DNA from: Dissulfurimicrobium hydrothermale
GTDB lineage: Bacteria > Desulfobacterota > Dissulfuribacteria > Dissulfuribacterales > Sh68
Direction of reading: 5' to 3'
Assembly (NCBI RefSeq): GCF_022026155.1
Contig: NZ_CP085041.1
Location: 1,520,306 to 1,584,305, forward strand
DNA: 64,000 bases
Shown here: positions 15,873 through 60,075 of the stretch, in pieces
Layout: every line of letters begins with the position of its first letter
How positions within the stretch are numbered: the stretch's first letter is position 1
Position numbers and translations under genes: made by a program
The notes under the pieces: model-generated
Database searches by the model: none
What the model was told of the DNA's origin: nothing
What the model saw: the letters and a program-made list of their open reading frames with translations, nothing else

Positions 15873-18029
15873 ATGAACAACAACAGACAGAATGTTAGAA
15901 AATCCACGATCACTGCTGATCCTGTATCAGCATCGATCAGAGATGATTTTTTGCAATTGAGAAGCCAAAAATTAGAAACGATCAATGCCTTGGGTATCAT
16001 TCTAAGAATGATACGAACGGCAACCGCCAATTTACCGCGCGATATACTGGCACAACATATCACAAGGATACTCATAGAAGATACAGATTTTGAAAACGCA
16101 TCTATTCTTCTTTATGACAAAGAGCATGATTGTCTAAGGTTAAATAAGGCGACTGGGTTTTTGGATGTCCTGGGTGACAATATCGAAATCGATTACAATA
16201 AAGATCTTGTTTTTCAAAGGGATGAGGGTATTGCATGGCGTGTATTCAAGTATCAAACCCCATTTTTTATAGAAGATTGCGAAAGCCAACCGCTACCCAA
16301 TAAAAAGGGGGCAAAAATAAATCCCGGATCCTTTGTCTGTCTCCCTCTTGGGGACCAAGGGGTCATCAATATGAGTGCTTCCAGAAAAAGGATGCTCCCA
16401 GAGATCAAGAGAAGATGCCTTATAATCCTTGCCGATCTCGCAGGACATCTGCTTCGACAGGCAGACCTTCAAGACCATCTCAACAGCGGACATCTGAATC
16501 TGCAGCAACTCGTTGAGGCTGGCATCATCGGTCATGGTGCGGACGCCTGGCTAAAGGAGTCAGCATCATATCTAGAATCAGTCATGCAATATATCCCCCA
16601 GGGCATATGCATTATCAATATAAACGGCGACATTGTTTATGCAAACCAGCGCCTTTTGAATATGCTTGACAGTGAGATCAACCATCTGAGGAACCAACCG
16701 ATAAGTAAGATAGTTGTTGACGCGGCAGGCTTTGATGAGGTGTTTAAGCACGTCCTCTATAAAAGAGAGATAACCCGAGCGTCTGACGTACATCTTGCGA
16801 AAGCAGACGGATCGGCGCTGCCGGTTGAGATATTTCTCCATCCATTGAAGGGCCGGGGCGGCCATATCGATGGGGTTATGTTGGTCATCTATGACCCTTC
16901 GACTAGGCAATCCATAAGTGAAGATCTATTGCGTGATGAAAAACTTAAGGCTATCGGCACCATGGCAGGTGGGATAGCGCACAACTTTAATAACCTTTTG
17001 ACAGCCATCCTTGGTAATATAGAGCTTCTCGCAAGAGGCATAACAGACCCTATTGCGCTCAAACGTATAAAGAATATAGAAAGGGCGGTGCTTGACGGGG
17101 CGCAGATGATACGCCGGCTCCAGACCTTTACTAGGTTCAATGCCTTAAAACAAGAAAATTATGCCCCGACTGATGTAAAGACAGCCATAGAAGATGCAAT
17201 AGAACTCACAAGCCCGCGATGGAAAGATATTTGTCAGAGAAAGGGGATCCAGATAAATCTTATTAAACAACTTGATGATACCGGGCCGGTATCCATCCAG
17301 CAGTCCGAGTTGAGAGAGGTGTTGATAAACATGATATTCAACGCCATTGAGGCCATGCCAGATGGGGGTGACATCACGCTGCGCACTTATCAGCACGGTT
17401 CGACAGCATTCCTCGAGATCGAGGACACAGGCTCAGGTATGTCCGATGATATAAAGAGACAGGTGTTTGACCCATTCTTTAGTACAAAAGGCGTTGAAAA
17501 CTCCGGCCTCGGGCTCAGCATATCGTATGGTCTCATCGTTGGAAGCGGTGGAGATATAAGGGTAAAAAGCCAACCAGGCAAGGGCACGACATTTATCTTG
17601 TCCCTGCCTGTCGTCAAACACCATCAGCCGGACGCGGCAAACAAGGAAGGTCTTGCCGCCATAAATGCGCTGCGGATACTTGTGGTAGACGATGAAGCGC
17701 CCCTTGTCGATCTTTTATCTGTCATGTTAAAAGATATGAACCACATCGTAACAGGTACCTCAAGCGGCGAAAAGGCCTTATCGCTCATTGAAACTGAAAG
17801 ATTCGATCTCATAATAACAGATCTAGGCATGCCGCTGGTAAACGGCTGGCAGATAGCCGCAGCAGCCCATGCAAAATCCCCCCCTGTACCTGTAATCCTC
17901 CTTACTGGCTGGGGATGTGATTATGACGGGAAAGACCTCAAGGCCAGAGGCATAGCTGCGGTCCTTTGCAAACCGTTCAAGCTGGATGGACTTATTTGCG
18001 CAATATCAGAGGTAGTCAACCAGTCATGA
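15873..18029 (+). CDS. Hybrid sensor histidine kinase (GAF-PAS-HisKA-HATPase-REC)
   Basis: A 718-residue soluble hybrid kinase; no membrane segment is seen, so it senses a cytoplasmic signal. Domains in order: GAF-like (about residues 45-200), PAS (about 235-345), dimerisation/phosphoacceptor with GTMAGGIAHNFNNLL (His370), HATPase with NMIFNAIEAMPDGG and DTGSGMSDD, and a C-terminal receiver starting at ILVVDDEAP with the phosphoacceptor in LIITDLGMP and the conserved Lys in CKPF. The N-box/HNFNN motif places it in the large PAS-hybrid group. No separate response regulator is adjacent; the output partner is unknown. It follows an HDOD gene and ends at a hairpin shared with the opposite-strand lipoprotein genes. 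Confidence 0.93.
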   Translation: MNNNRQNVRKSTITADPVSASIRDDFLQLRSQKLETINALGIILRMIRTATANLPRDILAQHITRILIEDTDFENASILLYDKEHDCLRLNKATGFLDVLGDNIEIDYNKDLVFQRDEGIAWRVFKYQTPFFIEDCESQPLPNKKGAKINPGSFVCLPLGDQGVINMSASRKRMLPEIKRRCLIILADLAGHLLRQADLQDHLNSGHLNLQQLVEAGIIGHGADAWLKESASYLESVMQYIPQGICIININGDIVYANQRLLNMLDSEINHLRNQPISKIVVDAAGFDEVFKHVLYKREITRASDVHLAKADGSALPVEIFLHPLKGRGGHIDGVMLVIYDPSTRQSISEDLLRDEKLKAIGTMAGGIAHNFNNLLTAILGNIELLARGITDPIALKRIKNIERAVLDGAQMIRRLQTFTRFNALKQENYAPTDVKTAIEDAIELTSPRWKDICQRKGIQINLIKQLDDTGPVSIQQSELREVLINMIFNAIEAMPDGGDITLRTYQHGSTAFLEIEDTGSGMSDDIKRQVFDPFFSTKGVENSGLGLSISYGLIVGSGGDIRVKSQPGKGTTFILSLPVVKHHQPDAANKEGLAAINALRILVVDDEAPLVDLLSVMLKDMNHIVTGTSSGEKALSLIETERFDLIITDLGMPLVNGWQIAAAAHAKSPPVPVILLTGWGCDYDGKDLKARGIAAVLCKPFKLDGLICAISEVVNQS

Positions 18030-53329: not shown

Positions 53330-53935
53330 TCATATGCGGTTAACAGAGACATCCAAATCCTTTAATATTCCGTCCCGGATGCTATATATCCAGCCATGTA
53401 CGTAAAGGTCTCGCCCCTTTCGCCAGGCATTCCTGACAAAACCGGTTCGGCAGACATTGTGCACCTGTTCAATGACATTGAATTCGCACAGCCTGTCAAG
53501 CCGCTGCGCGGCATCGAAAATGGCATTGATTTCTTTCATATAGCGCCGGTAAACTTCACTGACATGGCCCAACCAATTGTTGATCAAGCCATATGATTCT
53601 ATTTCTTCCATATCCATGGCTGTCTTCACGCCACCGCATCCATAATGTCCACAGACAATGATATGCTGCACACTTAGCACCTCTACAGCATATTGAATGA
53701 CGGCCATACAGTTTATATCAGACTGGACAACTATATTGGCGATATTGCGATGCACAAACAATTCGCCTGGCGGCATGCCAACGATCTGATTCGCCGGAAC
53801 CCGGCTGTCCGAACACCCTATCCATAAATACTTAGGTGACTGCTGCTTGGAGAGTCTTTCAAAGAAAGCCGGGTCTTCTTTCTTTATGCCGTCAGCCCAT
53901 GCCCTGTTGTTGTCAAACAAACATTTAAGAGTCAT
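53330..53935 (-). CDS. can: Beta-class carbonic anhydrase
   Basis: Interconverts carbon dioxide and bicarbonate. 201 residues. Zinc ligands C41, H97 and C100 with the D43-R45 dyad (GCSDSRVP; CGHYGCGGVKTAM) place it in the E. coli Can-like group. The gene is on the minus strand, 33 bases after the HPr-kinase-like gene, so the two may be co-transcribed. The 125 bases between it and the debranching fragment show no gene or clear terminator. Confidence 0.95.
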   Translation of the reverse strand: MTLKCLFDNNRAWADGIKKEDPAFFERLSKQQSPKYLWIGCSDSRVPANQIVGMPPGELFVHRNIANIVVQSDINCMAVIQYAVEVLSVQHIIVCGHYGCGGVKTAMDMEEIESYGLINNWLGHVSEVYRRYMKEINAIFDAAQRLDRLCEFNVIEQVHNVCRTGFVRNAWRKGRDLYVHGWIYSIRDGILKDLDVSVNRI

Positions 53936-55747: not shown

Positions 55748-55802
55748 ATTCTCTCCTTTTTTGGCGCCGATATCTGCCAATAGACCTACAGTTTTTTTAC
55801 AT

Positions 55803-55845
55803 AAAAAAAGCCGAAGATCACCGTTTTAACCGGTAACTCTTCGGC
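55803..55845 (-). terminator. Intrinsic terminator/attenuator ahead of the HPrK-like gene
   Basis: Minus strand: GCCGAAGA and TCTTCGGC (55845-55838 and 55817-55810) form an 8-base stem, extended by an inner ACCG/CGGT pairing, followed by seven U (55809-55803). It sits 56 bases before the HPrK-like start and 197 bases after the DUF2294 stop. It is either the end of the upstream operon or a leader attenuator. Confidence 0.75.
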
Positions 55846-55970
55846 CTCTTATCCCGTTTGCACCCTTGCCAGGCCCATCCGGGCATATCGGCTGTATTTT
55901 TAAGAAACAGGCCAGTGCTTCCTTAAAAACACCGGCTGATACTGACCAGCCTTATTAATAAGGGCCCTTC
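55838..55970 (-). ncRNA. Structured leader RNA candidate upstream of the HPrK-like gene
   Basis: Reading the minus strand toward the gene: GGCTG/CAGCC hairpin, TTTTTAAG/CTTAAAAA 8-base stem, GCCC-GGAT-GGGC tetraloop stem, then GGCCT (55875-55871) that can pair with AGGCC (55847-55843). The last element overlaps the 5' arm of the terminator, so the two pairings exclude each other. This is the layout of a riboswitch or attenuator. I could not match it to a known riboswitch class. The 294-base gap holds no gene that I see. Confidence 0.45.
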
Positions 55971-56041
55971 AATATCTAGTTAGAAGATTAAATTAAATGT
56001 CAGAGATGTCAAGGTCAGATAACTCTTAATTGAAAAATTAA

Positions 56042-56410
56042 TTATTCGAAATCAATGGGTGCGGCCAGAGTAAAAAGAATTATCCTTTCTCCTGTAACAG
56101 TACTGATGTCAGTATGAAGGCTTATCACCTTCTGTCCGACAATGGCCTCCACTGCCGCCTCCAGCAAGGGTCTGCCCTTTTCCATAAGGGCAATCCGCAC
56201 CTTCTTGATCAACTCCCTGCCGCCATCAATCTCACCAGGTACAGCAAGTTGGCATTCGGCCCGAGTAAGGACCCCTTTGAGCCGAACCAGCACCATATCA
56301 TCGATAAAATAGGTCTTGGTTTCAAGAGGCCCCCTCCCCATATATTCCTTCTCAAATTTAATGACGACGTCACTTATTTCAGCCTCAAGCTGCCCTTTTG
56401 TCTTTTTCAT
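56042..56410 (-). CDS. DUF2294 family protein
   Basis: A 122-residue protein matching DUF2294: it opens with KTKGQLEAEISDVVIKFEKEYMGRGPLETKTYFIDDMVLVRLKGVLTRAECQL, the conserved core of the family, and ends with TDISTVTGERIILFTL. The fold is not one I know; there is no signal peptide or membrane segment. It follows the sugar-kinase gene by 18 bases. Proteins of this family are widespread, and their role is unsettled. Confidence 0.85.
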   Translation of the reverse strand: MKKTKGQLEAEISDVVIKFEKEYMGRGPLETKTYFIDDMVLVRLKGVLTRAECQLAVPGEIDGGRELIKKVRIALMEKGRPLLEAAVEAIVGQKVISLHTDISTVTGERIILFTLAAPIDFE

Positions 56411-58756: not shown

Positions 58757-60075
58757 GGGCCTGTAAATAATTTTGTGTAAACGGTCTTGTTTTTTCATAT
58801 TCAATAAGCAGGCATTCTGTCACCAAATAAGATGGAAAAGCGGTTCAATGCGGCCTTCCAGTCTCTGATTGGCATAGTCCATTTCCTGGCGATATTGTTC
58901 AGCGCCAGATAAAGCAGTTTGAGCATAGCCTCGTCATTGGGGAACGAACCCCGGTTCTTAGTAACTTTGCGCAGCGACATGTTCAACGATTCTATAGCGT
59001 TAGTCGTGTATATCACCTTGCGTATCTCCGACGGATAGGCAAAAAAGGGATAATGCGCTCCCAGTTCCTGCGCCAGGATTGGCCGATGGACGGATGCGTT
59101 TCATCCCATTTTTCCTCAAAGGCCGTAAGATTCATCTCAGACTGCTCGGCGGTTGTCGCCTGGTAGATGGTCTTGAGGTCCGCAGCTACCTCTTTGCGCT
59201 GTCTCCATGAGACATATCTCAGGGAATTGCGCACCATATGGACAATGCAGAGCTGTATCCGGGTGCGAGGAAAGACCGTCTCAATGGCCTCGGGGAAACC
59301 CTTCAGGCCATCCACACAGGCAATAAAGATATCCTGTACCCCACGATTTCTCAACTCTGTCACTACCTGCAACCAGAACTTGGCGCCTTCGTTTTCCGCA
59401 ACCCACATCCCCAGGACATCCTTGACCCCATCCATGGTGATACCGATAGCCAGATAGACCGCCTTGTTCATAACATGTCCATTATCGCGTCCCTATAGAT
59501 GATCGGGTAAACAGTGTCCAGAGGGCGATTCTGCCAGATTTTAACCTCATCGGCAACAGCGTCAGTGACCGCTGAAATCAGGCTGGGAGAGACATCAACA
59601 CCATAGATATCCTCCAGATGCCCCTGAATCTCCCTGGTGGTCATACCCCGGGTGTAGAGTGAAATAATCTTGTCATCAAAACCGGAAAAGCGGGTTTGCC
59701 CCTTCGGAATGATCACCGGATCAAAGCTGCTGTCGCGGTCACGAGGGACATCGATCGGCAGCTTGCCAAACTCACCCTTGATGGTCTTGACGGATTTGCC
59801 ATTACGGGCATTTCCGCCTTTGACGGCTATTGCACCATGTTTCTCGTGTCCCAGATGGACAGCCATTTCCGCCTGCAGCGCCCTTTCCAGAAGGGCCTTG
59901 GTCAGTTGCTTGAGCAACCCGTTTTCCCCGATCAGCTCTTCGGGTCTTTTACAGTCGTAGCCGACAAACAGACGATCCAACAGTTCTTTTTCAATGGCCA
60001 TAATGATCTCCTTTTAAAGGGTGGGATATCGACATACCCCTGAATGGCCATTTACACAAATTATTTTACACCCTC
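58757..60075 (-). mobile_element. IS256-family insertion sequence, inactive
   Basis: About 1.32 kb. Imperfect inverted repeats of ~23 bases lie at 58762-58784 and 60048-60070 (both TGTAAA...TTTGTGTAAA in orientation), and the element is flanked by GTAAATTA (58749-58756) and GTAAATTT (60076-60083), an 8-base target duplication with one mismatch. The size, ends and duplication length match IS256. It landed between the Mut7-C gene and the 135-residue protein gene. Confidence 0.85.
58801..60001 (-). pseudogene. IS256-family transposase, broken into three frames
   Basis: Mutator-type DDE transposase. The N-terminal part (from 60001) ends in YPIIYRDAIMDML; the middle (NKAVYLAIG...CVDGLKGFPEAI...IVHMVRNSLRYVSW) and C-terminal ([22 protein letters not shown]...) parts are in other frames. 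First break, near 59470: a short internal deletion has lost the usual V-x-x-RDNGHV stretch; AATGG repeats could have mediated it. Second break, near 59041-59046: a run of six T (minus strand) where seven would restore [19 protein letters not shown]. All catalytic acidic residues are still visible, so the losses are recent, or the second is a sequencing error. Confidence 0.9.

Follow-up and report, generated by a model that had tools for sequence, protein, structure and literature searches.

In the genome of Dissulfurimicrobium hydrothermale Sh68, an autotrophic sulfur disproportionator for which CO2/HCO3- can be the sole carbon source (PMC8780430), a short gap separates a gene for an MpsC/DUF2294 protein from a gene for an HPrK-like protein. 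We asked whether the RNA read from this gap does more than end the MpsC transcript and, if so, which genes it would control and what signal it may respond to. In what follows, the window is the whole stretch of D. hydrothermale DNA that was analysed, 64,000 nucleotides long.

A structured leader with its own promoter-like site and terminator

The studied interval (window positions 55748-56041, 294 nt, minus strand) is exactly the intergenic gap between the MpsC/DUF2294 gene and the HPrK-like gene, and it contains a promoter-like site of its own, a leader with several hairpins, and a strong intrinsic terminator (Table 1). The original prediction for this DNA had placed successive hairpins and a terminator with seven U upstream of the gene. 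Both were found, with PA, PB, and P1/P2 followed by a terminator at 55848-55803 whose hairpin (T2) alone folds at -25.1 kcal/mol (z -6.2). The 302-nt leader RNA from the coding strand folded at -96 kcal/mol compared with -74.7 kcal/mol in shuffles (z -4.7), and the opposite strand folded less well (z -3.0). A promoter-like site lies at the same place in most copies of the element described below, reaching a score of at least 9.5 in 64% versus 20% of shuffles.

The minimum-energy fold of the window leader also uses a pairing between GCCGAUAU (55893-55886), located 5' of P1, and the complementary AUAUCGGC at about 55774-55767 on the minus strand, just before the ribosome-binding site. This pairing was not seen at locus L005 and is perhaps specific to the D. 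hydrothermale genome.

Table 1. Features of the leader region and its neighbouring genes in the D. hydrothermale window
Feature	Position	Strand	Basis or remark
MpsC/DUF2294 gene	56042..56410	minus	Pfam PF10057, E 2.1e-36; synteny
Promoter-like site TTGACA-16-TAATCT	55985..56012	minus	Just past the MpsC stop, a few bases 5' of the folded domain; consensus match only
Three-way-junction domain	55897..55983	minus	R3 match 55985-55848, 56 bits (window copy in training set); covariation over 25 copies
PA hairpin	55976-55938	minus	Part of the three-way-junction domain
PB hairpin	55936-55911	minus	Part of the three-way-junction domain
Linker from junction domain to P1, A-rich in most copies	55887..55896	minus	Conserved A positions in the 25-copy alignment
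P1/P1b/P2 hairpin	55853..55883	minus	R1 match, 69.5 bits (window copy in training set); P1 and P2 pairs covary
Intrinsic terminator T2, 5' arm AGGCCGAAGA, seven U	55803..55848	minus	-25.1 kcal/mol, z -6.2; two-sided changes in 11 of 16 modelled pairs
Ribosome-binding-like GGAGAG of the controlled gene	55756-55751	minus	Sequence
Controlled gene, predicted PEPCK/HPrK-superfamily protein, 592 aa	53969..55747	minus	Sequence, AlphaFold, Foldseek, weak Pfam matches in homologues
Beta-carbonic anhydrase, next gene downstream	53330..53935	minus	Pfam PF00484, E 2.6e-54; NCBIfam carbonate dehydratase above cut-off

The leader had also been thought to fit no riboswitch class. Our search of the whole window with Rfam 15 agrees with this, since no family reached its gathering score. 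The best permissive match was psRNA14, which scored 27 bits against a cut-off of 60 and covered only the terminator hairpin. At nine loci with strong copies of the element, again no Rfam family matched it. Near the element copies of genome G371, locus L067 contains a Cobalamin riboswitch (RF00174, 105 bits) at 17002-17219 on the plus strand.

A DNA search of the host genome, a single contig of 2,025,450 bases, matched the element once, which speaks against a dispersed repeat or mobile element.

The controlled gene is predicted to encode a PEPCK/HPrK-superfamily protein

The 592-aa product of the gene downstream of the leader had no match in Pfam, and Hpr_kinase_C did not exceed its curated cut-off. 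Weak matches to Hpr_kinase_C were found in 15 of 29 homologues (best E 0.00089) and weak matches to PEPCK_ATP in 11 of the same 29. When an AlphaFold model of the protein (pLDDT 85.6) was compared with Foldseek, the best 50 matches listed were all PEP carboxykinases (best E 1.7e-14, TMq only 0.42). A sequence search of solved structures with the HPrK-like family gave nothing useful. These comparisons point to a member of the PEPCK/HPrK superfamily, and we name the protein by superfamily and not by activity. The family, which has no Pfam or NCBIfam name, occurs in Desulfobacterota, Pelosinus, and others; its fold is nearest to PEP carboxykinase and its Walker-A region is like that of HPr kinase. 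Elsewhere in the window (58801-60001, minus strand), beside a macro-domain gene region, are adjacent open frames that may be a broken transposase.

The leader is one of 25 copies of a covarying RNA family

Hairpins like those of the window were expected upstream of homologous genes, and the comparative search bore this out with 25 copies and clear covariation. Genes closely homologous to the HPrK-like gene, at 66-84% identity, retain this leader, and in most cases MpsC lies upstream. The homologue at L023 (50% identity) has no MpsC within 1.5 kb, yet keeps the P1/P2 hairpin and a near-identical terminator.

A covariance model, R1, was built from eight leaders of HPrK-like genes. In the alignment of these leaders 91.6% of cells were paired and 15 pairs had changed on both sides compared with 6.8 in shuffles, and slid controls collapsed. 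We searched 258 genomes of one order with R1 and then retrieved the flanks. This search found 17 further copies in related Desulfobacterota for a total of 25 copies scoring 50-91 bits. The next independent matches, at about 36 bits, and those below them look like bare terminator hairpins, and none was returned by a model from which the terminator was left out (R3). In an alignment of the 25 copies that was fitted to R1 and hence biased towards its structure (A5), 94.5% of cells were paired and 20 of 25 pairs had two-sided changes; the observed values were reached in none of 500 shuffles. All 25 copies share a three-way-junction domain, the P1/P2 hairpin, and the terminator.

R3 was built from a second alignment (A6) with all 25 copies in the training set. 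Over the 258 genomes it gave 23 matches in 16 genomes, all with E-values, which are rough for these models, of 3.4e-13 or less and with nothing weaker up to 0.01. Over 39 loci it returned exactly the same 25 copies and nothing else up to E 1; HPrK-like genes outside the copy-bearing group at these loci gave no match. The window copy scored 56 bits, the L005 copy 49, and the other copies 71-122. About 18 genomes, all from a single phylum, supplied the 25 copies, and many of these copies share one conserved neighbourhood, so that clusters shared by descent count as fewer independent events.

The interval is a copy of a family of structured, covarying 5' leader RNAs of about 180-200 nt that is absent from Rfam, and this conclusion is strongly supported. 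Covariation, conserved unpaired positions, and gene association define the element, as they do the orphan structured RNA motifs known from comparative genomics. It differs from these motifs in being missing from Rfam 15 and in occurring, among the samples searched, only in some Desulfobacterota; the phylum sample was searched with R2, a full-length model in which domain 2 was off by one column, and few candidates were scored per genome.

Between MpsC and the HPrK/PEPCK-like gene of genomes in family f44 (L017, L018, L020, and L027) we observed a different leader that R3 did not find. Its layout matches that of the element, the order being MpsC, promoter-like site, hairpins, AUAAGCC, terminator, and gene, with seemingly two such leaders in tandem in L018. 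It may represent another class of leader for this gene.

A three-way junction lies 5' of the P1/P2 hairpin

The second domain of the element, found INDEPENDENTLY, lies 5' of R1 and was not used in finding the copies, yet it is conserved in all 25. Helix P0 closes a three-way junction with the PA and PB hairpins. The pairings that form P0 differ among copies (UAAGC/GCUUA, UUGGUG/CACCAA, UUAGG/CCUAA, and UAUGGC/GCCGUA), and PA contains a purine-G mismatch between wobble-type pairs. The same layout was recovered by minimum-energy folds of many single sequences. In A6, a plain MAFFT alignment, the combined structure had 85.7% of cells paired and two-sided changes in 28 of 35 pairs. Its covariation score was 0.459 compared with 0.291 in shuffles, none of 500 being as high, and was 0.174 or less when the structure was slid.

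The window copy is a divergent member of the family with a poorly formed closing helix P0 and an unusual PB. A good P0 is also missing in L005, which is without PB as well. A U-rich strand 3' of PB in L007 and L030 was considered as a second terminator and rejected; in most copies this is the 3' strand of helix P0b.

The element has the layout of a transcription attenuator

An expression platform adjoins the folded domain, in that the intrinsic terminator is directly downstream and itself covaries. This arrangement of a conserved folded 5' leader domain with an intrinsic terminator directly after it is also that of terminator-type riboswitches. We consider the leader to be a transcription attenuator, most likely a riboswitch. 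Transcription would start from the promoter-like site that precedes the element, and termination or read-through by RNA polymerase would then depend on the state of the folded domain.

An antiterminator formed by GGCCU (55875-55871) and AGGCC (55847-55843) had been put forward as the switch. The two strands are indeed complementary, AGGCC lies within the terminator 5' arm, and the pairing is possible in all eight copies first compared. This part of the proposal stood, but the pairing does not covary and conflicts with P2, of which GGCCU forms the covarying 5' strand, and we set it aside as the switch. An H-type pseudoknot made through the same strands was dropped on the same grounds. On average, no other region is as complementary to the terminator 5' arm as the GGCCU region, but its pairing energy within sequences (-7.8 kcal/mol) is no better than that between sequences (-7.9 kcal/mol). 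Pairing of the P0' strand with the T2 5' arm is good in some copies and was set aside, the pairing within a copy's own sequence being no better than that across sequences. Comparing within- and cross-sequence pairing thus revealed no alternative terminator pairing that is conserved. Sequence conservation in the lower stem suggests that the terminator 5' arm has a second partner.

The element precedes genes of one physiological theme

The gene downstream of the element is PEPCK/HPrK-like in 12 of the 25 copies, carB followed by carA in five, and purE in five; the remaining three copies precede a CitMHS-family transporter gene, a cytochrome-assembly gene, and a contig end. On the 3' side of purE are genes for a SulP permease, PEP carboxylase, or pyruvate:ferredoxin oxidoreductase. 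In 15 copies the element immediately follows MpsC, and in L063 one gene lies between the two. About 10 of the 25 copies are not directly 3' of DUF2294 and are still located before carB, purE, or the HPrK-like gene.

Four genomes (G371, G447, G573, and G576) contain copies at carB and also at either purE or the HPrK-like gene; those of G500 lie at carB, at the HPrK-like gene, and at a contig end. The presence of several copies before different genes in one genome suggests that a single type of RNA is used for different genes within the same cell. The same RNA precedes several genes of one physiological theme, including HPrK/PEPCK-like genes, carB, purE, and others.

At L063 (2036-5396) the genes for MpsC and a diadenylate cyclase with DACND/DACNH sensor domains are followed by an element copy and a cytochrome c assembly gene, a neighbourhood that possibly links the element to c-di-AMP.

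Discussion

The reactions of CarAB and PEP carboxylase and the PurE/PurK step are textbook examples of dependence on CO2 or bicarbonate. The same compounds are also handled by carbonic anhydrase and pyruvate:ferredoxin oxidoreductase, and SulP permeases carry several anions. Inorganic carbon is what links the genes that the element precedes or whose clusters it shares: it is used or moved by CarAB, PurE, PEP carboxylase, pyruvate:ferredoxin oxidoreductase, and carbonic anhydrase, and possibly by the SulP permease and the PEPCK-like protein. We therefore propose that the element is an undescribed attenuator, probably a riboswitch, that responds to HCO3-, CO2, or a close proxy. The ability of the host to grow on CO2/HCO3- (PMC8780430) fits this proposal. 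With the candidate ligand taken from gene content, we judge the chances of this reading to be about even. Its stricter form is a bicarbonate (or CO2) riboswitch class, in which the RNA would directly sense dissolved inorganic carbon and set the transcription of carboxylation and carbon-supply genes; this we put forward tentatively and think somewhat unlikely.

Bacterial carboxylations generally need bicarbonate or CO2 (PMC8552792, PMC6689103), and fluoride riboswitches demonstrate that RNA can bind a small anion (PMC10043782). The literature searched held no report of a CO2 or bicarbonate riboswitch. The element resembles the fluoride (crcB) riboswitch, a known sensor of a small anion, in that a small anion is its suspected signal. 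It differs from this and other terminator-type riboswitches in its larger, unrelated fold, in having no Rfam match, and in that no covarying antiterminator pairing was found. The genes associated with ykkC RNAs included purine, carboxylase, and bicarbonate-transporter genes, and the ligand of the main class is guanidine (PMC7266159), a history that cautions against naming a ligand from gene lists. The associations of the ykkC group (guanidine, PRPP, and ppGpp riboswitches) with purine genes, transporters, and carboxylases partly overlap those of the element, whereas the architecture of the element is different, has no Rfam match, and goes with a theme of carB, PEPCK-like, and pyruvate:ferredoxin oxidoreductase genes. 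MpsC is weak evidence for an inorganic-carbon signal because, in reports on S. aureus, the working MpsAB bicarbonate transporter does not include it (PMC6689103, PMC8552792).

The leader could instead be a site where a protein, possibly MpsC/DUF2294 itself, binds to promote or prevent termination, with the RNA sensing no small molecule directly. The frequent position of MpsC just upstream of the element fits such a role, as does the lack of a covarying antiterminator pairing, and the order of promoter, leader, terminator, and gene is that of protein-dependent attenuators. The structural model of MpsC is a small alpha/beta protein at best weakly like ribosomal L23-type proteins (E 0.03, TM 0.33), which alone is no evidence. 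However, MpsC occurs without the element RNA in genomes of unrelated groups (the f44 loci). The domain is also larger than the usual protein-binding hairpins, and its size and complexity, three-way junction, and conserved unpaired positions are typical of ligand-binding RNAs. We regard a protein-binding leader as rather unlikely.

A riboswitch-like attenuator for another signal, such as a nucleotide, PRPP, PEP/oxaloacetate, carbamoyl phosphate, or c-di-AMP, is unlikely. Both carB and purE are nucleotide-synthesis genes, PEP carboxylase and the PEPCK-like protein handle PEP and oxaloacetate, and a diadenylate cyclase gene is just upstream of the L063 copy. But inorganic carbon gives a simpler link among carB, purE, PEP carboxylase, pyruvate:ferredoxin oxidoreductase, carbonic anhydrase, and SulP than any one of these molecules, and the Rfam classes that exist for PRPP, ppGpp, purines, and c-di-AMP did not match the element in the window or at the nine loci with strong copies. 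An ordinary terminator for MpsC, accompanied by hairpins without regulatory function, is a very improbable reading of the gap: the frequent position of MpsC immediately before the element and the strength of the terminator hairpin would fit it, but the three-domain structure is conserved and covaries, promoter-like sites lie between MpsC and the element (in the window, after the DUF2294 stop, as expected if the leader is more than the end of that transcript), and copies without an adjacent MpsC precede carB, purE, and HPrK genes.

On the inorganic-carbon reading, the shared use of CO2 or bicarbonate as a substrate by the targets makes the element a concrete and cheaply testable candidate for RNA-based sensing of inorganic carbon. 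The element probably places carbamoyl-phosphate synthase, purine carboxylation, PEPCK-like, and other carbon-handling genes in a single regulon. Should the signal prove to be a different molecule or a protein, the element would still be a new structured RNA family of sulfur-cycling bacteria.
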